Notes under the pieces: model-generated | The model's database searches: none | The model's input: the letters and a program-made list of their open reading frames with translations, nothing else | What the model was told of the DNA's origin: nothing | Program-made: the position numbers and the translations under genes | Shown: piece after piece, positions 1,034-23,408 of the stretch | Layout of the letters: every line of letters begins with the position of its first letter | How positions within the stretch are numbered: the first letter of the stretch is position 1 | Assembly (NCBI RefSeq): GCF_905480415.1 | Contig: NZ_CAJQQI010000160.1 | Span: 1 to 35,187 of the forward strand | DNA from: an uncultured Algibacter sp. | GTDB taxonomy: Bacteria > Bacteroidota > Bacteroidia > Flavobacteriales > Flavobacteriaceae | Length of the DNA stretch: 35,187 nucleotides | Direction: 5' to 3'

Positions 1034-1069
1034 AAAGAGCTCCTACGAATCTAATCGTAGGAGCTCTTT
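1034..1069 (-). terminator. strong terminator of the 89-residue protein gene
   Basis: A perfect 15-bp stem (1034-1048 with 1055-1069; core GAGCTCCTACGA) encloses a 6-nt loop. On the minus strand the stem runs into CTCTTTTTG, so it terminates the minus-strand gene ending at 1088. The T-tract on the plus side is weak. Confidence 0.85.
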
Positions 1070-2399: not shown

Positions 2400-3017
2400 T
2401 TACACCTTTATGGAACAACCAATAGCTTTTGTTTCCTTTTGCATAACTTCTTCGCCTTTTAACAAAGCATCAACTGCGTTTTCAACAAACTTTATTTTTA
2501 CTGCTGAAACATCTTCATGATTATCGTCAATAGCCCCAATATACTTTACAACATTACCCTTTTTAGTTTTTTCAAGTACATAAATATGAGGGGTTTTAGT
2601 AGCTCCAAATTTCGGGTACACCTTTTGTCCTTTATCTATTAAATATGGAAAAGTAAAGCCTTTCTCTTGAGCTCTTTGCTTCATGGCTTGCATATTATCT
2701 CCAGGTTTAACATCTGTATTATTTGGCATAATAGCAATTACAGGATAGCCTTGAGACCCATACTTTTCGTTTAGTGCTTGTATTCTGTCTTCATACAGGA
2801 CTGCAAAAGGGCAAGTATTGCATGTAAATGTTACTATAAATCCTTTGGCATCTTTATAATCTGCCAAAGAAACCATACTATTATCAATATTTTTTAATGA
2901 AAAATCATCGGCAAGATCACCAATTCCATATCCCTTTTGAGTCATATTGTTTAGAGCAAAAGCACTTATAAATAGCACAAGAAGTGCAGCAGAAATTATT
3001 TTAATCGCCTTTTTCAT
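2400..3017 (-). CDS. exported thioredoxin-fold protein, peroxiredoxin-like
   Basis: A signal peptide or N-terminal anchor (residues 1-22, KIISAALLVLFISAFAL) precedes an AhpC/TSA-type redoxin domain. The redox motif is CNTC (Cys66 and Cys69) in the context VTFTCNTCPFA, followed by YEDRIQALNEKYG; the cis-Pro region is ATKTPHIYVL. This belongs to the large set of bacterial redoxin-domain proteins that act in the periplasm; the partner is unknown. Its ATG overlaps the 3' end of the upstream TlpA-like gene by 17 nt, so the two are translationally linked and may act on the same substrates. Confidence 0.82.
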   Translation of the reverse strand: MKKAIKIISAALLVLFISAFALNNMTQKGYGIGDLADDFSLKNIDNSMVSLADYKDAKGFIVTFTCNTCPFAVLYEDRIQALNEKYGSQGYPVIAIMPNNTDVKPGDNMQAMKQRAQEKGFTFPYLIDKGQKVYPKFGATKTPHIYVLEKTKKGNVVKYIGAIDDNHEDVSAVKIKFVENAVDALLKGEEVMQKETKAIGCSIKV

Positions 3018-3570
3018 ATAAAATTTTATTTAAAAATTGTTTTACTTCTTTTTCTAATTCTTCATAAGTAAAAGATTGTTCGTAAAACTTACTATTATCA
3101 TTCTTAAAAATTATGGTTGCTGGTATTGATCCAGACCAACTTTTATCAACTTTCGGTATCCAAGAATTCATATCAACATCATCCAAAGCAATTACTTTTG
3201 ATGCTAACTTTTTCTCTTTTACAAACGGTTTTAGCTTTTTATCATATAAATGCGGAAAGTCTAAACTTACTAATATGACCTCAACATTTTTATTTATATA
3301 TTCAGAATTCAGCTTTTCAAAATATGGTAATTCTTTAACACAAGGGGCACACCAAGTTGCCCAAAAATTAATTACATAAACTTTATCGTCTTTCCTGTTC
3401 AAAAATGTCTCAAAACCTGCATAATCATAAACTTCAAGTTCTATATCCCCTTTCTTTATTTCGCTTTCAACGGCTTCTTCAGTGACTTCTTTAAATACCT
3501 CAGCAGTTTTGTTGTTTTTTCCGCAACTTACCATTAAAAGAATGACAATAATTAGTATGTTTAGTTTCAT
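3001..3570 (-). CDS. TlpA/ResA-like thioredoxin lipoprotein
   Basis: Starting at the ATG at 3570 the protein begins MKLNILIIVILLMVSCGKN, a lipoprotein signal with Cys16 as the lipidated residue. A thioredoxin fold follows with the active site WCAPC (Cys74 and Cys77) in INFWATWCAPCVKELP, the signature of TlpA/ResA-type thiol reductases that work outside the cytoplasm. The frame is open for 96 nt further upstream, but that extension would cover the trp promoter and would place the signal peptide inside the protein, so 3570 is preferred. The gene overlaps the following redoxin gene and is divergent from the trp operon. Confidence 0.85.
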   Translation of the reverse strand: MKLNILIIVILLMVSCGKNNKTAEVFKEVTEEAVESEIKKGDIELEVYDYAGFETFLNRKDDKVYVINFWATWCAPCVKELPYFEKLNSEYINKNVEVILVSLDFPHLYDKKLKPFVKEKKLASKVIALDDVDMNSWIPKVDKSWSGSIPATIIFKNDNSKFYEQSFTYEELEKEVKQFLNKILYEKGD

Positions 3571-3645
3571 AACTATAAAATTAATTAATAGTTCTTTGCA
3601 TTTCTTATAGTTTAACAAACTTTTATACAAATAATGTTTCAAAGT

Positions 3646-3677
3646 TTTGTGTATAACTATTTTCATTTCTATATTTG
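3646..3677 (+). promoter_or_regulatory. promoter of the trp operon
   Basis: TTTG at 3646-3649 is separated by exactly 20 nt from TATATTTG at 3670-3677, matching the Bacteroidota promoter consensus (-33 TTTG and -7 TAnnTTTG). Transcription should start near 3682, about 15 nt before the leader peptide ATG. Confidence 0.75.
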
Positions 3678-3696
3678 AACAAATTAAGAACTAAAA

Positions 3697-3744
3697 ATGA
3701 ACACATTTTTAAATAATACTTGGTGGTGGTGCTTTCGAAATTAA
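3697..3744 (+). CDS. trpL: trp leader peptide with three consecutive Trp codons
   Basis: ATG at 3697 opens a 15-codon frame reading MNTFLNNTWWWCFRN and ending in TAA at 3742-3744. The three TGG codons at 3721-3729 are adjacent, which is very unlikely by chance in DNA this AT-rich, just upstream of trpE. It lies between a consensus promoter and a factor-independent terminator at 3789-3819. By analogy with proteobacterial leader peptides, a ribosome stalled at these codons when charged tRNA-Trp is scarce would choose the antiterminator fold. No Shine-Dalgarno sequence is present, normal for this phylum. Confidence 0.85.
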   Translation: MNTFLNNTWWWCFRN

Positions 3745-3808
3745 TCTTCGTGAAGTAAAACCCTAGTATATTTAAAATTAAAATATTCAAAAGGCTTGTC
3801 ATTCACGA
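3730..3808 (+). promoter_or_regulatory. alternative RNA pairings of the trp attenuator
   Basis: Segment 3730-3737 (TGCTTTCG) can pair with 3749-3757 (CGTGAAGTA, one bulged T and two G-U pairs); this is the 1:2 hairpin and begins right after the Trp codons. Segment 3748-3754 (TCGTGAA) is perfectly complementary to 3802-3808 (TTCACGA), the loop and first stem bases of the terminator, giving a 7-bp 2:3 antiterminator. A ribosome stalled on the Trp codons would cover the 5' arm of 1:2 and free segment 2. The pairings are seen in sequence; the mechanism is inference. Confidence 0.65.
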
Positions 3809-3819
3809 CAAGCCTTTTT
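3789..3819 (+). terminator. trp attenuator terminator
   Basis: AAAAGGCTTGTC (3789-3800) pairs perfectly with GACAAGCCTTTT (3807-3818) around ATTCAC, followed by TCTTTG. It lies 45 nt after the leader-peptide stop and 43 nt before trpE, the position expected of an attenuator. Confidence 0.88.
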
Positions 3820-3861
3820 CTTTGTTCTGAAGTTATTTCAGAATAAAACAAAACTCATAAG

Positions 3862-5268
3862 ATGAAAAAATTTAGTCTTTACACACATCATAAAAAAATC
3901 TTAACAGATACTATTACACCGGTTACTGTGTATTATAAAATACGCGATAAGTACCCAAATAGTATTTTGCTAGAAAGTGGTGATTATCATAAGAGTCATA
4001 AAAATTTCTCATATATCTGCTTTAACCCAATTGCATCTATCAAAGTTGAAAATGAGATTATTTCACAAACATTTCCTGATGGCAGTGCAACATCTTTGGA
4101 AATAACAAATGATGTTAATGTAGTTGACGAAATCTACAATTTCACCAAGAAATTTGATACTAAATCTGAAGAAAATTTCAAATTCATCAATAATGGTATT
4201 TTTGGTTATACAGCTTACGATGCTGTAAGATATTTTGAAGATGTAGAAATTAGTAAAAAAGATGATTCTGTAGTTATTCCAGATATGTACTATGCGGTTT
4301 ATCAAAACATCATAGCTATCAACCATTTTAAAAATGAAGCTTATATTTTCGCACATTGTTATGAAGACACACCGAATAACATTGATGCTATTGATAAATT
4401 AATTAATGTTCAAAATTTCGCATCTTATAATTTCAATTCTAAAGGAGATATTAAATCTAATCTGACAGATGATGAGTTTAGAGAAAATGTTGAAGTAGCC
4501 AGAAAACACTGCCAAAGAGGAGATGTGTTTCAGTTGGTATTATCTAGGCGTTTTTCACAAGAATTCACAGGAGATGATTTTAATATTTACCGTGCTTTAA
4601 GAAGCATCAATCCTTCACCATATTTATTTTATTTTGATTATGGCGATTTTAAAATTTTTGGAAGTTCACCAGAAGCACAACTTATTGTAACAGATGGTTT
4701 AGCTGAAATACACCCCATTGCAGGCACTTTTAAACGTACTGGTGATGAACAACAAGATGAAATTTTAGCGGAAGAACTCAAAAAAGACGACAAAGAAAAT
4801 GCAGAACATGTCATGCTAGTTGATTTAGCTAGAAATGATTTGAGCCGTCATGGAAGTCAAGTAAACGTTGAGACCTATAGAGAAGTTCAGTTTTTCTCTC
4901 ATGTTATTCATTTAGTGAGTAAGGTTGTTGGACAGAAACACGACAAAACATCAACAATGCAAGTGGTGGCAGACACTTTTCCTGCGGGAACTTTAAGTGG
5001 TGCACCAAAACACAGAGCCATGCAACTCATTGAGAAGTATGAAAAAACAAGTCGTGGTTATTACGGCGGTGCCATAGGATTTATGGATTTTGACGGTAAC
5101 TTTAATCACGCTATTATGATTCGTACCTTTTTAAGTAAAGACTACAAATTAAATTGGCAAGCAGGCGCGGGATTGGTTTCAAAATCTGATGCAGAAAGTG
5201 AATTGCAAGAAGTATACATTAAGTTAGGAGCATTAACTAAAGCTATTAAATTAGCAGAAGATATTTAA
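3862..5268 (+). CDS. trpE: anthranilate synthase component I
   Basis: This subunit makes anthranilate from chorismate with ammonia delivered by TrpG, the first committed step of tryptophan synthesis. The 468-residue length is normal. The N-terminal domain carries ILLESGDYH; LLES is the Trp-binding motif in which the Ser is needed for feedback inhibition in enteric TrpE, so inhibition is likely. The C-terminal chorismate-binding domain shows GSSPEAQLIV, PIAGTFKRTGDEQQDE, VMLVDLARNDLS, FPAGTLSGAPKHRAM and AGAGLVSKSDAE. The first gene behind the leader peptide and attenuator, it is followed by trpG after 3 nt. Confidence 0.97.
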   Translation: MKKFSLYTHHKKILTDTITPVTVYYKIRDKYPNSILLESGDYHKSHKNFSYICFNPIASIKVENEIISQTFPDGSATSLEITNDVNVVDEIYNFTKKFDTKSEENFKFINNGIFGYTAYDAVRYFEDVEISKKDDSVVIPDMYYAVYQNIIAINHFKNEAYIFAHCYEDTPNNIDAIDKLINVQNFASYNFNSKGDIKSNLTDDEFRENVEVARKHCQRGDVFQLVLSRRFSQEFTGDDFNIYRALRSINPSPYLFYFDYGDFKIFGSSPEAQLIVTDGLAEIHPIAGTFKRTGDEQQDEILAEELKKDDKENAEHVMLVDLARNDLSRHGSQVNVETYREVQFFSHVIHLVSKVVGQKHDKTSTMQVVADTFPAGTLSGAPKHRAMQLIEKYEKTSRGYYGGAIGFMDFDGNFNHAIMIRTFLSKDYKLNWQAGAGLVSKSDAESELQEVYIKLGALTKAIKLAEDI

Positions 5269-5271
5269 AAG

Positions 5272-5838
5272 ATGAAAAAGGTATTAGTTATAGATAATTA
5301 CGACAGTTTTACTTACAATTTGGTTCATTATTTAGAAGACTTAAATTGTGATGTGACGGTTGTAAGAAATGATAAATTAGCTTTAGAAGATGTGGCTCCT
5401 TTTGATAAAATTGTATTATCTCCTGGTCCTGGAATTCCTGATGAAGCCGGATTATTAAAACCTATTATTAAAAAATACGCGTCTACAAAAAGCATTTTAG
5501 GAGTATGCTTAGGACAGCAAGCTATTGGTGAAGTTTTTGGTGGATCACTAATAAATTTAGATGAGGTTTATCATGGTGTGGCCACTAGTGTAAAGCTATG
5601 CGTGGATGATGAATATATATTTAAGAGTTTAGATAAAAACATTGAAGTAGGACGGTATCATTCATGGGTTGTCAATCCAGATTTACCTGATAGTTTAGAA
5701 GCGACCTCTTTTGATGCAAACGGACAAGTTATGTCTTTAAGGCATAAAATTTATGATGTAAGAGGCGTACAATACCATCCAGAATCGGTTTTAACGCCGG
5801 ATGGCAAAAAGATATTAGAAAATTGGGTAAATAATTAA
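5272..5838 (+). CDS. trpG: anthranilate synthase component II, glutamine amidotransferase
   Basis: A class I glutamine amidotransferase of 188 residues that hydrolyses glutamine and passes ammonia to TrpE. Visible are VIDNYDSFTYNLV, the oxyanion-loop motif LSPGPGIPDEAG, the nucleophile elbow GVCLGQQ with Cys79, and VQYHPES with His169 and Glu171 completing the triad. It is a free-standing subunit, not fused to trpE or trpD. Only 3 nt separate it from trpE, implying coupled translation. In other bacteria such a subunit can also serve folate synthesis (PabA role); whether that holds here cannot be seen. Confidence 0.96.
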   Translation: MKKVLVIDNYDSFTYNLVHYLEDLNCDVTVVRNDKLALEDVAPFDKIVLSPGPGIPDEAGLLKPIIKKYASTKSILGVCLGQQAIGEVFGGSLINLDEVYHGVATSVKLCVDDEYIFKSLDKNIEVGRYHSWVVNPDLPDSLEATSFDANGQVMSLRHKIYDVRGVQYHPESVLTPDGKKILENWVNN

Positions 5839-5871: not shown

Positions 5872-6864
5872 ATGAAAGACATACTCAATAGACTTATAAA
5901 TCACGAAACCATTTCAAGCGAAGAGGCTAAACAGGTTATTGTTAATATATCAAATGATATCTATAACCCAAGTCAGATAACATGCTTCCTATCTGTTTTC
6001 ATGATGCGAAGTATCACCTTAGAAGAATTAAAAGGCTTTAGAGATGCTCTTTTAGAACTTTGTGTATCAATAAACCTCAACGATTTTAATGCAATAGATA
6101 TAGTTGGAACTGGAGGTGATGGTAAAAATACTTTCAACATCTCTACTCTATCATCTTTTATTACGGCAGGTGCTGGAGTTAAAGTTTCCAAACATGGTAA
6201 CTATGGTGTATCATCAACTTCTGGTTCATCTAATGTTATGGAATATTTAGGTGTGAAATTTTCCAACAATGAAGATTTTTTAAGAGGATGCATAGATAAA
6301 GCTGGAATATGCATATTACACGCACCATTATTTCATCCAGCTATGAAGAACGTTGCTCCCATTCGTCGAGAGTTAGGAGTTAAAACCTTTTTCAACATGT
6401 TGGGCCCTTTGGTTAATCCTTCATTTCCAAAAAACCAAATGCTAGGAGTTTTTAGTTTAGAGCTTTTACGCCTTTATAGTTTTATATATCAAAACACGGA
6501 AACAAACTACAATATTGTTTATGCCCTAGATGGCTATGATGAAATTTCATTAACAGGAAAAGCAAAAATTGTTTCCAACCATACTGAAAAACTTTTTTCA
6601 CCAGAAGACTTGGGGATTAGTAAAATTAGACAAGACGCTATTTTTGGAGGAAATACAATTAAAGATGCTGCCAAAATATTTATGGATGTTATAAGTGGTA
6701 ACGGAACAGAAGCCCAAAACAATGTGGTTTGTGCAAATGCTGGATTGGCTATTGCAACAACAAAACAAATTTCGCATCAAGTTGGTTTCGAAATGGCTAA
6801 AGAATCTTTATTTTCAGGAAATGCAAAAGCAAGTTTAGACAAATTGATTGAGTTAAGTAGATAA
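5872..6864 (+). CDS. trpD: anthranilate phosphoribosyltransferase
   Basis: Transfers the phosphoribosyl group of PRPP to anthranilate. The 330-residue protein has the small N-terminal helical domain (to about residue 70) and the PRPP-binding glycine loop DIVGTGGDGKNTFN, followed by KHGNYGVSSTSGSSN, which holds the conserved Lys-His-Gly and Ser residues, and RRELGVKTFFNMLGPLVNP. It begins 33 nt after trpG, and its last base overlaps the A of the trpC ATG. Confidence 0.96.
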   Translation: MKDILNRLINHETISSEEAKQVIVNISNDIYNPSQITCFLSVFMMRSITLEELKGFRDALLELCVSINLNDFNAIDIVGTGGDGKNTFNISTLSSFITAGAGVKVSKHGNYGVSSTSGSSNVMEYLGVKFSNNEDFLRGCIDKAGICILHAPLFHPAMKNVAPIRRELGVKTFFNMLGPLVNPSFPKNQMLGVFSLELLRLYSFIYQNTETNYNIVYALDGYDEISLTGKAKIVSNHTEKLFSPEDLGISKIRQDAIFGGNTIKDAAKIFMDVISGNGTEAQNNVVCANAGLAIATTKQISHQVGFEMAKESLFSGNAKASLDKLIELSR

Positions 6865-7649
6865 TGAATATACTAGATAAAATAACATTAGATAAAAGAA
6901 ATGAAGTTGCACTGAGAAAGCAACTCATTCCAACATTTCAATTAGAGCAATCTGTTTTATTTGAAAGACAAACAGTTTCTCTTGCTACTAATTTACGGAA
7001 CAGTAAATCTGGTATAATTGCTGAACACAAACGTAGATCTCCATCTAAATCTGTAATTAATAATACGCTAAACGTTCAAGATGTTGCAAAGGGTTATCAA
7101 GACGCAGGTGTTTGCGGAATATCAGTTTTAACAGATGGTAAATATTTCGGAGGTTCTCTTGATGATCTACTAACTGCTAGAGCTAGTTGTAATCTACCTT
7201 TATTGCGTAAAGAATTCATTATAGATGAATACCAAGTATTAGAGGCAAAAGCTTATGGTGCTGATGTAATTTTATTAATTGCGGCTATACTAACTAGAAA
7301 TGAAATTAAACAGTTTTCAGAATTTGCAAAAAGCTTAAATTTAGATGTGCTTTTAGAGGTTCATAACGAGGAAGAATTACATAAATCTATCATGCCAAGT
7401 TTAGACATGCTTGGAGTAAATAATAGAAATTTAAAAACCTTTGATGTTAGTTTAGATGTAAGTAAAAATTTAAGCAACCTTATTCCAAATGATTTTGTAA
7501 AAATATCAGAAAGTGGTATTAGTAATATAGAAGCTATTAAAGAACTAAAGCCTTATGGCTACCAAGGTTTTTTAATTGGAGAAAACTTTATGAAAACTGA
7601 CAATCCAGGTGAAAGTGCAACCGAATTTATTAAAAGTTTAGTAGGATGA
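6864..7649 (+). CDS. trpC: indole-3-glycerol phosphate synthase
   Basis: Closes the indole ring from carboxyphenylamino-deoxyribulose phosphate. The 261-residue TIM barrel shows IIAEHKRRSPSK (beta-1 with the catalytic Lys region), ISVLTDGKYFGGSLDDL, LLRKEFIIDEYQV, GADVILLIAA, LGVNNRNLKTF and ISESGI. The usual IAEIKR reads IAEHKR here. It is free-standing (no trpF fusion as in enterics). The ATG overlaps the trpD stop. The gene is followed by an unusual 87-nt spacer containing an inverted repeat and a 14-bp palindrome before trpFB. Confidence 0.95.
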   Translation: MNILDKITLDKRNEVALRKQLIPTFQLEQSVLFERQTVSLATNLRNSKSGIIAEHKRRSPSKSVINNTLNVQDVAKGYQDAGVCGISVLTDGKYFGGSLDDLLTARASCNLPLLRKEFIIDEYQVLEAKAYGADVILLIAAILTRNEIKQFSEFAKSLNLDVLLEVHNEEELHKSIMPSLDMLGVNNRNLKTFDVSLDVSKNLSNLIPNDFVKISESGISNIEAIKELKPYGYQGFLIGENFMKTDNPGESATEFIKSLVG

Positions 7650-7736: not shown

Positions 7737-9545
7737 ATGAAACTAAAAGTTTGCGGTATGAAATACCAAGATAATATTCAGGAAGTTGCAACATTGCAAC
7801 CTGACTATCTTGGGTTTATTTTTTATGAACAATCTGCGCGACACTTTGATGCACACCGTATACCAGAAATATCAAACACCATAAAAAAAACAGGTGTTTT
7901 TGTTGATGCAGATTTAGACTTTGTTATTAAAAAGATCAGCAAACATAATTTAAAAGCTGTTCAATTACATGGCAACGAAGCTCCTGAATATTGTAAGCAA
8001 CTTCGAGGAAAAAATATCGAAATTATAAAAGTGTTTTCAATTAAAAATGAATTCGATTTCAGTGTTTTAAAACTGTATGACGATATTGTTGATTACTTCC
8101 TTTTTGACACCAAAGGCAAACTCCCTGGAGGCAACGGATATGTATTTGATTGGACAATTTTAAACAATTATCCATCTACTATCCCTTTCTTTTTAAGCGG
8201 AGGAATAGGGTTGAGCCAAATTGATGATATCAATAAATTTCAGAAAAGCGAAGCTTCAAAGTATTGTTATGCTCTAGATGTGAATAGCAAATTTGAAATA
8301 GAACCTGGATTAAAAAACATAGAAGACTTAAAAAAATTTAAAAATAATCTGACTTCCAAAATAATGAATTACAACGTAAACGAAAAAGGCTATTATGGCG
8401 AATTTGGAGGGGCATTCATTCCTGAAATGCTCTATCCTAATGTAGAAGAATTGCGTCAAAATTACTTAAAAATAATGGCTGAACCTGATTTTAAAAAGGA
8501 GTTCAATCAACTACTTAAAGATTATGTGGGTCGCCCTTCTCCCCTGTATTTTGCCAAACGTCTTTCAGAAAAATACAACACCAAAATTTATTTAAAACGC
8601 GAAGATTTAAACCATACTGGCGCACATAAAATCAATAATACCATTGGTCAAATTTTAATGGCTCAACGTTTAGGTAAAACAAGAATTATAGCTGAAACTG
8701 GTGCTGGTCAACATGGGGTTGCTACAGCAACTGTTTGTGCTTTAATGGGACTTGAATGTATTGTTTATATGGGTGAAATTGATATTGCACGTCAAGCACC
8801 AAACGTTGCCAGAATGAAAATGCTAGGTGCAAGAGTAGTCCCTGCCCTATCAGGAAGTCGTACTTTAAAAGATGCCACTAATGAAGCTATTAGAGACTGG
8901 ATTAACAACCCCGTAGATACACACTATATTATTGGTTCAGCCATTGGTCCTCATCCCTATCCAGATATGGTAACTCGTTTTCAAGCTATTGTTTCAGAAG
9001 AAATAAAATGGCAACTAAAAGAACACGAAGGACGAGAAAACCCTGACTATGTTGTGGCGTGTATTGGTGGCGGTAGTAATGCTGCCGGAACTTATTACCA
9101 CTATTTACACGAACCTGATGTTGGTATTATTGCTGTAGAAGCTGCTGGTTTAGGTATTGAATCTGGCGAAAGTGCAGCAACGTCAGTTTTAGGAAAGGAA
9201 GGCATTATTCACGGATGTAAAACCCTGTTAATGCAAACTAACGACGGACAAATTACTGAACCTTACTCTATTTCGGCAGGATTAGATTACCCTGGTGTTG
9301 GCCCAATGCACGCACATTTAGCTAAAACAGGTCGCGCAGAATTCATGTCGATTACCGATAACGACGCTATGGATGCTGGTTTAGAGCTTTCAAAATTAGA
9401 AGGTATCATTCCCGCCATAGAGACGTCTCACGCCTTAGCTATTTTTAAGTATAAAACATTTAGACCTGAAGATGTTGTTGTTTTGAATTTATCTGGTCGT
9501 GGAGATAAAGATTTACAGAACTATATAGATTATTTTAAAATATAA
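7737..9545 (+). CDS. trpFB: phosphoribosylanthranilate isomerase - tryptophan synthase beta chain fusion
   Basis: One open frame of 602 codons. Residues 1 to about 209 are Trp[12 protein letters not shown] with Cys6, [35 protein letters not shown] and FLSGGIGL. From Met210 (ATG at 8364) it is a full Trp[21 protein letters not shown], the PLP lysine in TGAHKINNT (Lys298 of the fusion), GGGSNAAG for the PLP phosphate, and HALAIFKYK near the end. TrpF catalyses the Amadori rearrangement; TrpB joins indole and serine. TrpB could also be made separately from the internal ATG. At the junction (TCC AAA ATA ATG), one A fewer in the AAAA at 8358-8361 would end TrpF at a TAA overlapping this ATG, so the fusion may be recent or a sequencing artefact. 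Confidence 0.93.
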
Positions 9546-9550
9546 ATTAT

Positions 9551-9634
9551 GAGCGTTACCGCAAGGGTCGGGCTTTACGCTATATCTTTTTTGCTTTTAA
9601 AAACAAAAAAGGATGCTGCTTCAATCCCTAACGC
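9551..9634 (-). repeat. dispersed palindromic repeat, copy A (between trpFB and trpA)
   Basis: On the minus strand this 84-bp unit starts GCGTTAGGGATTGAAGC, continues with GCATCCTTTTTTG and AAAAAAGATATAGCG, and ends AAGCCCGACCCTTGCGGTAACGC. The ends (GCGTTA/TAACGC) and the centre (CTTTTTTG/CAAAAAAG) are complementary, so it can fold into one long hairpin. Related copies lie at 19590-19764 and 23258-23408. It separates trpA from trpFB by 104 nt. Confidence 0.8.
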
Positions 9635-9649
9635 AAAAAACATTTCTCA

Positions 9650-23166: not shown

Positions 23167-23257
23167 ATCAGTTGCAGTTTTCATTCTGAATATGTTAAAG
23201 TGAATGTTCTTAAATAAACTTAAAATATTATGAGTTTATAAATCTGTATTCTGGCTT

Positions 23258-23408
23258 GCGTTAGGGATTGAAGCGGCATCCTTTTTGTGCGAAAAACAAA
23301 TTTTGTCTGGAACCGTAAAACATCCTCTTATCAGAAAGTTTAATGAGATACTGAAATAAGTCCAGCACAAGAAAGATACAGCGGAAAGCCGGACCCTTGT
23401 GGTAACGC
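23258..23408 (+). repeat. dispersed palindromic repeat, copy B
   Basis: Begins GCGTTAGGGATTGAAGCGGC and ATCCTTTTTGTGC, and ends GCACAAGAAAGATACAGCGG, AAAGCCGGACCCTTGTGGTAACGC. Outer (GCGTTA/TAACGC) and inner (TTGTGC/GCACAA) segments are complementary. Compared with copy A, the centre carries about 70 extra nt. It lies in the coaD to SulP spacer, whose first 90 nt hold only a possible gene remnant. Confidence 0.8.

Follow-up and report, generated by a model that had tools for sequence, protein, structure and literature searches.

What kind of regulatory leader stands ahead of the tryptophan operon in an uncultured Algibacter sp., and does it operate as the trp attenuators of Proteobacteria do? 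We analyzed the 35,187-nt stretch that forms positions 1 to 35,187 of contig NZ_CAJQQI010000160.1 (the window) and compared its leader with those of related genomes. An initial annotation, made from the sequence of the window, had proposed ribosome-mediated attenuation at this place. This is the best reading of the leader, since the ORF, its Trp codons, the terminator and the antiterminator are conserved, and the element, a member of the Bacteroid-trp family, very probably attenuates transcription of the trp operon in a ribosome-dependent manner. The leader comprises the following elements.

3646-3677 (+), promoter: TTTG at 3646-3649, a 20-nt spacer and the -7 element TATATTTG at 3670-3677, located by pattern search
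3677-3800 (+), match to Rfam family RF01692 (Bacteroid-trp), 61 bits against a cut-off of 49, covering model positions 1-131 (full length)
3697-3744 (+), ORF of a 15-residue leader peptide, MNTFLNNTWWWCFRN, with ATG at 3697 and TAA at 3742-3744
3712-3772 (+), 1:2 hairpin, found by folding (-16.0 kcal/mol for 3712-3776), with weak covariation
3721-3729 (+), three consecutive TGG (Trp) codons, the proposed stall site
3748-3754 (+), region 2, TCGTGAA, the 5' strand of the antiterminator, found by pairing search and covariation
3789-3818 (+), intrinsic terminator with a 12-bp stem, a 6-nt loop and a T-rich tail, found by folding, terminator search and covariation
3802-3808 (+), region 3, TTCACGA, the 3' strand of the antiterminator, made up of five loop bases and two bases of the terminator 3' arm

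The name of RF01692 is Bacteroidete tryptophan peptide leader RNA, and the window element scores over the family cut-off, lies upstream of trp genes and contains a short ORF with three consecutive Trp codons (WWW). Bacteroid-trp was listed as a cis-regulatory motif of Bacteroidetes by Weinberg et al. (2010, PMC2864571), and a paper on the elastase of F. psychrophilum places the element before the trp operon and draws a comparison with the leader of E. coli (PMC6414381). Whether the arrangement had been described for this lineage, a point on which the initial annotation was undecided, is thereby settled: the family is catalogued, the attenuator reading is in print for F. psychrophilum, and the window attenuator, judged by its sequence, is not new but belongs to Bacteroid-trp. 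A transcriptome study of the same species finds strong indications that amino-acid operons are preceded by leader-peptide attenuators (PMC9723704); the words trp and tryptophan are absent from its main text.

Matches to RF01692 were found in all ten genomes sampled from the genus, among them that of the window, in 141 of 199 genomes of the family and in 30 of 296 genomes of the phylum, 28 of these 30 belonging to the window's family; the family and phylum searches used stricter filters, by which weak matches are lost. Of these 199 family genomes, 183 yielded a match for trpD, and RF01692 is present in 139 of the 183 genomes with trpD vs. 2 of the 16 without it. This leaves 44 family genomes that possess trpD and have no Rfam match. 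We fetched 20 of their trp loci, of which 18 could be checked (no trpE was detected in one, and one contig ended inside trpE). Each of the 18 carries a short ORF containing two or three Trp codons in a row and, ahead of trpE, a terminator hairpin (for L181 and L184 the leader, and for L193 the terminator, was identified by eye), thus the RF01692 model under-counts the members of the family. The main comparative set consists of 148 loci, ten from the genus (window included) and 138 from the 139 other family genomes with a match; genome G090, where the match sits at the edge of a contig (C26:1-121), was left out for that reason. The alignment (A1) holds 147 of these loci, as L097 was dropped due to a misparsed terminator.

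The leader directly precedes the genes trpE-G-D-C-FB-A, which were assigned as follows.

3862-5268 (+), trpE; best match TIGR00564 (trpE_most), 426.7 bits, under the curated cut-off of 517.7
5272-5838 (+), trpG; TIGR00566 over cut-off
5872-6864 (+), trpD; TIGR01245 over cut-off
6864-7649 (+), trpC; NF001377 over cut-off
7737-9545 (+), trpF-trpB fusion; full-length match to PRK13803.1, 780.8 bits, under the cut-off of 819, with the trpB part over the cut-off of TIGR00263
9650-10414 (+), trpA; TIGR00262 over cut-off

The gap between trpFB and trpA contains a Flavo-1 RNA (RF01705) on the opposite strand (9562-9639, -), and a second match of 41.4 bits, below the cut-off, lies at 23249-23399 (+). 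The window's genome has 31 Flavo-1 matches at E <= 0.001, 18 of them over the cut-off, so Flavo-1 looks like an interspersed multi-copy element; in F. psychrophilum, Flavo-1 hits are reported to occur indistinctly in sense and antisense (PMC9723704).

Analysis of the region upstream of the leader ORF indicates that the predicted promoter is of the Bacteroidota type. A sigma-70 promoter for the trp leader was rejected, as no sigma-70-like site was found. The Bacteroidota pattern taken alone occurs in the window at chance level (3 found vs. 3.03 expected); the weight of the call comes from the relatives, since by a raw count, unadjusted for chance, 145 of 148 loci have TAnnTTTG in the 60 nt that precede the leader ORF. 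The consensus promoter of the initial annotation is thereby retained, in its Bacteroidota form. Transcription in Bacteroidetes starts 4-5 nt after the -7 element (PMC6847099), and this spacing places the predicted transcription start of the window at 3682-3683 and its predicted 5' UTR at about 14-15 nt. On the opposite strand, a divergent thioredoxin-like ORF (3001-3666, -) would run into the trp promoter if translated from its listed ATG at 3666; it more likely starts at the in-frame ATG at 3570, behind which a signal-peptide-like stretch follows.

Translation of the leader appears to follow the habits of the phylum. The start codon is ATG in 143 of 148 loci, and motifs of four or five bases resembling a Shine-Dalgarno sequence precede the ORF in four of the 148. 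The absence of such a sequence before the window's leader ORF, from which it had been concluded that coupling of translation to transcription must depend on other cues, is confirmed; however, it poses no special puzzle, because absence of the Shine-Dalgarno sequence is described as the rule across Bacteroidetes (PMC6847099). An A at position -3, which the same source gives as favourable for initiation in Bacteroidetes, precedes the start codon in 83 of 148 loci, the window among them. In 28 of 145 loci (for example, L014, L015 and L046) the start codon itself lies 4-5 nt past the -7 element, thus the leader-peptide mRNA may be leaderless there. Leaderless transcripts account for 5.5% of the mRNAs examined in F. 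psychrophilum (PMC9723704).

The 15-residue peptide and its three TGG codons are read directly in the sequence, as first annotated. An ORF with at least two consecutive Trp codons is present in 148 of 148 loci, the parser having required these two codons, and WWW in 144 of 148 loci, window counted in; the latter figure is partly built in, because the loci were picked by RF01692, whose model covers the peptide. The 18 checkable Rfam-negative loci all have tandem Trp codons as well, and in both sets the relatives keep the Trp codons, as the initial annotation had anticipated.

The terminator stem pairs 3789-3800 with 3807-3818, with the sequence AAAAGGCTTGTC-ATTCAC-GACAAGCCTTTT and an energy of -17.4 kcal/mol. 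The 12-bp stem and the T-rich tail described earlier were both recovered, but the stem ends at 3818 and not at 3819. The terminator search returned two terminator-like sites, which are the same hairpin on either strand, against a shuffle mean of 0.0. Elsewhere in the window, a terminator-like inverted repeat of 14 pairs was observed at 1034-1069 (-). Among the 147 aligned loci, 99.9% of the cells of the terminator stem are paired, and changes on both sides of a pair occur in 7 of 10 pairs (31 cells), a level reached by none of 500 shuffles, while the count of further pair types was reached in 55 of 500. All shuffle tests of this kind overstate significance, because the loci are related to each other. 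Compensatory changes in these sequences strongly support the predicted terminator. A terminator of this strength could also act constitutively and yield a short RNA without any control by translation, the Trp-rich ORF being incidental. Given the tandem Trp codons in 148 of 148 loci selected by RF01692 and in 18 of 18 selected by trpD, together with the linkage of RF01692 to trp genes, we consider a constitutive terminator hardly credible, and ribosome-mediated attenuation remains the preferred reading.

The leader transcript as a whole is predicted to be strongly structured. Folding of 3682-3830, a check put forward with the initial annotation, gave -41.2 kcal/mol, far more stable than shuffled sequences (z = -5.58, with 0 of 200 shuffles as stable). 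The inner helix of the 1:2 hairpin pairs 3730-3739 with 3747-3757, and the outer helix begins at 3712, with bases of the Trp codons paired to 3761-3764; the hairpin therefore takes in the Trp codons and does not start just behind them, as had been stated. In 142 of 148 loci the minimum-energy fold pairs region 2 with upstream sequence; when the flanks were shuffled (one locus in three, 50 loci with 10 folds each), 227 of 500 folds did so. When the window's own structure was applied to all 147 aligned loci, 71.1% of the 1:2 cells were paired; changes on both sides were found in 9 pairs vs. 8.8 in shuffles and in 56 cells vs. 38.2, and slid versions of the pairing equal or exceed the count of pairs and do as well by the count of cells. 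The predicted 1:2 pairing is thus supported by energy and weakly by covariation.

The pairing that would oppose the terminator joins TCGTGAA of region 2 to its exact complement TTCACGA. All seven pairs are Watson-Crick, in agreement with the perfect 7-bp antiterminator of the initial annotation, and the duplex energy is -8.8 kcal/mol. In the window the length of this pairing is modestly above chance (80 of 5000 shuffles, or 1.6%, reach it), so the weight for the antiterminator rests with the relatives. Region 2 forms a duplex of at least 6 bp with the terminator loop, G-U pairs allowed, in 142 of 148 loci vs. 13.5% of shuffles. Of the antiterminator cells in the aligned loci, 93.9% are paired, and changes on both sides occur in 4 of 7 pairs (10 cells; 0 of 500 shuffles reach this). 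The covariation score is reached by 9 of 500 shuffles, with slides of +1 and +3 scoring nearly equally, and the outermost pair is unpaired in 44 of 136 cells. Compensatory changes, by these measures, moderately support the antiterminator; of the three pairings for which they had been sought, the terminator and the antiterminator show them, whereas the evidence for 1:2 is weak.

Several divergent loci retain the pairing with other letters. It is rewired as CGCAAT/ATTGCG in L110 and as GTAAAC/GTTTAC in L147, and in two Rfam-negative loci, L179 and L187, the terminator and region 2 are wholly different yet still pair; in L179 the pairing GGATTCAG/CTGAATCC involves the loop, three bases of the terminator 5' arm and one base of the 3' arm. 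Region 2 pairs with the terminator loop, in some cases with G-U pairs, in 17 of the 18 Rfam-negative loci (12 identified by script; L178, L181, L184, L193 and L194 by eye), the partner also taking 3-4 bases of the 5' arm in L179, L187 and L191, and L192 shows no clear pairing between region 2 and the loop. A swap test with 20 variant rows gave no clear support: region 2 prefers its own loop in eight rows and the consensus loop in eight, with four equal, and the mean scores are 6.25 for own, 6.35 for consensus and 5.78 for swapped loops.

We further examined which part of the terminator is the partner of region 2 by offering the whole terminator as target and seeking region 2 at 8-34 nt after the last Trp codon. 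The best partner uses at most two bases of the terminator 5' arm in 138 of 147 rows, and it includes 2-3 bases of the 3' arm in 120 of 147, the remainder being loop; a search limited to the loop and three bases on either side gave 141 of 147 rows with at most one 5'-arm base, a count that we set aside. These data bear on the possibility that the leader is an ordinary attenuator whose true antiterminator uses the 5' arm, as in E. coli, with the loop pairing incidental. In nine of the 147 rows the best partner is indeed mainly the 5' arm (7-8 bases), and L173, from another family of the same order, has a Trp leader whose antiterminator pairs 10 bp with the 5' arm. However, the other 138 rows scarcely use that arm, and the loop pairing is kept despite the changed letters of L110, L147 and L179, thus we regard a 5'-arm antiterminator as very improbable. 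In L173 the antiterminator sits inside the peptide ORF, possibly a transition between the two designs. L154, from another order of the class, has a leader before a trpB-like ORF in which a loop pairing with a bulge was read by eye; the scripted search gave a different, weaker pairing as its best. On this comparison, the loop-directed geometry looks typical of the window's family, Flavobacteriaceae.

The position of region 2 is also conserved. Its distance from the last Trp codon is 16-19 nt in 145 of 148 loci, while that of the stop codon varies from 6 to 30 nt, and the ORF extends past the start of region 2 in 108 loci and ends short of it in 40. A nearly fixed distance to the Trp codons combined with a moving stop is what one would expect if ribosome stalling has to keep region 2 free. 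This layout speaks against another interpretation of the loop pairing, namely that, instead of causing antitermination, it stabilizes the terminator or forms a pseudoknot recognised by some other factor. Judged from geometry, a hairpin loop can pair with a distant strand while its stem stays intact, and the pairing does spare the 5' arm in most rows; but region 2 would then be free just when Trp is scarce, so that regulation would run backwards, and its nearly fixed distance from the Trp codons fits an antiterminator better. We therefore find a stabilizing or pseudoknot role very improbable and retain the antiterminator function.

Equilibrium folding of growing transcripts is consistent with a ribosome-controlled switch. 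With region 1 covered, the antiterminator has a probability of 0.95-0.97 at 3' ends 3808-3812, and the terminator is ahead from 3' end 3814; with region 2 covered the terminator forms, and so it does with no ribosome, when region 2 is held in the 1:2 hairpin. The sequence itself shows the ORF with its Trp codons, the possible pairings and how far these are conserved; stalling, timing, termination and read-through would proceed as follows. When charged tRNA-Trp is ample, the ribosome would reach the stop codon at 3742 and cover region 2, so that the hairpin at 3789-3818 forms and transcription stops; in the absence of translation, the 1:2 hairpin would sequester region 2 and the terminator would form too. 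When Trp is scarce, the ribosome would stall on the TGG codons and block region 1, leaving region 2 free. Freed region 2 would then capture the emerging terminator loop (3802-3808) before the 3' arm is complete, and the polymerase would enter trpE. The occupancy assumed here, with region 2 free of a stalled ribosome and covered by a ribosome at the stop codon, is based on the size of the ribosome footprint.

Even when a ribosome is stalled, equilibrium folding favours the terminator from 3814 on, so antitermination would need kinetics. The kinetic control suggested in the initial annotation thus fits the energies, but it is not peculiar to the window's leader: such timing is described for trp attenuation in E. 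coli too (PMC1183508), and a dependence on timing is therefore no special feature.

We propose, with confidence evenly balanced between acceptance and rejection, that the leaders of the window's family represent a distinct design: the freed strand captures the apical loop of the terminator together with the top of its 3' arm, leaving the 5' arm untouched in most members, antitermination must be won kinetically by blocking terminator nucleation, and some relatives read the leader peptide from a leaderless mRNA. We recognised neither a description of a loop-directed antiterminator nor an experimental test of the trp leader in the main texts of the open-licence literature, and with this scope the negative is weak evidence. 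The attenuator as such is ordinary and already catalogued. The comparative set adds the missing half of the Rfam model, that is, the terminator and the antiterminator, as well as members that the model missed. It also exposes a testable variant geometry, one where a loop-directed pairing of 7 bp has to prevail over a terminator of 12 bp, and it places classical attenuation, which relies on the ribosome being closely coupled to the polymerase, in a phylum whose translation starts without the Shine-Dalgarno sequence.

The window leader was compared with the known systems closest to it. RF01692 as described by Weinberg et al. likewise has a leader with Trp codons before trp genes in Bacteroidota, and it differs in that base pairs in the Rfam model are confined to the 1:2 region and the model ends inside the terminator 5' arm. 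The attenuators of F. psychrophilum (PMC9723704) are similar in that leader-peptide attenuation is proposed, in Flavobacterium, upstream of amino-acid biosynthesis operons. With E. coli trpL (NC_000913.3) the window shares a terminator ahead of trpE and a short leader ORF in which Trp codons stand in tandem, and it has the full set of elements of an E. coli-type attenuator: regulatory codons within a leader ORF, and 1:2, antiterminator and terminator pairings as alternatives to each other. The arrangement is therefore that of proteobacterial trp attenuation with regard to its elements, as had been claimed, but not with regard to the target of the antiterminator. The promoter type differs, and the window leader has no Shine-Dalgarno sequence. 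In trpL the longest contiguous partner is the 5' arm of the terminator (5 bp, CGGGC/GCCCG, found with a slightly different search window), whereas in the window region 2 pairs with the loop and the upper end of the 3' arm and not with the 5' arm. By these sequence features, the window leader is predicted to work like the E. coli attenuator, although it is not built exactly like one.
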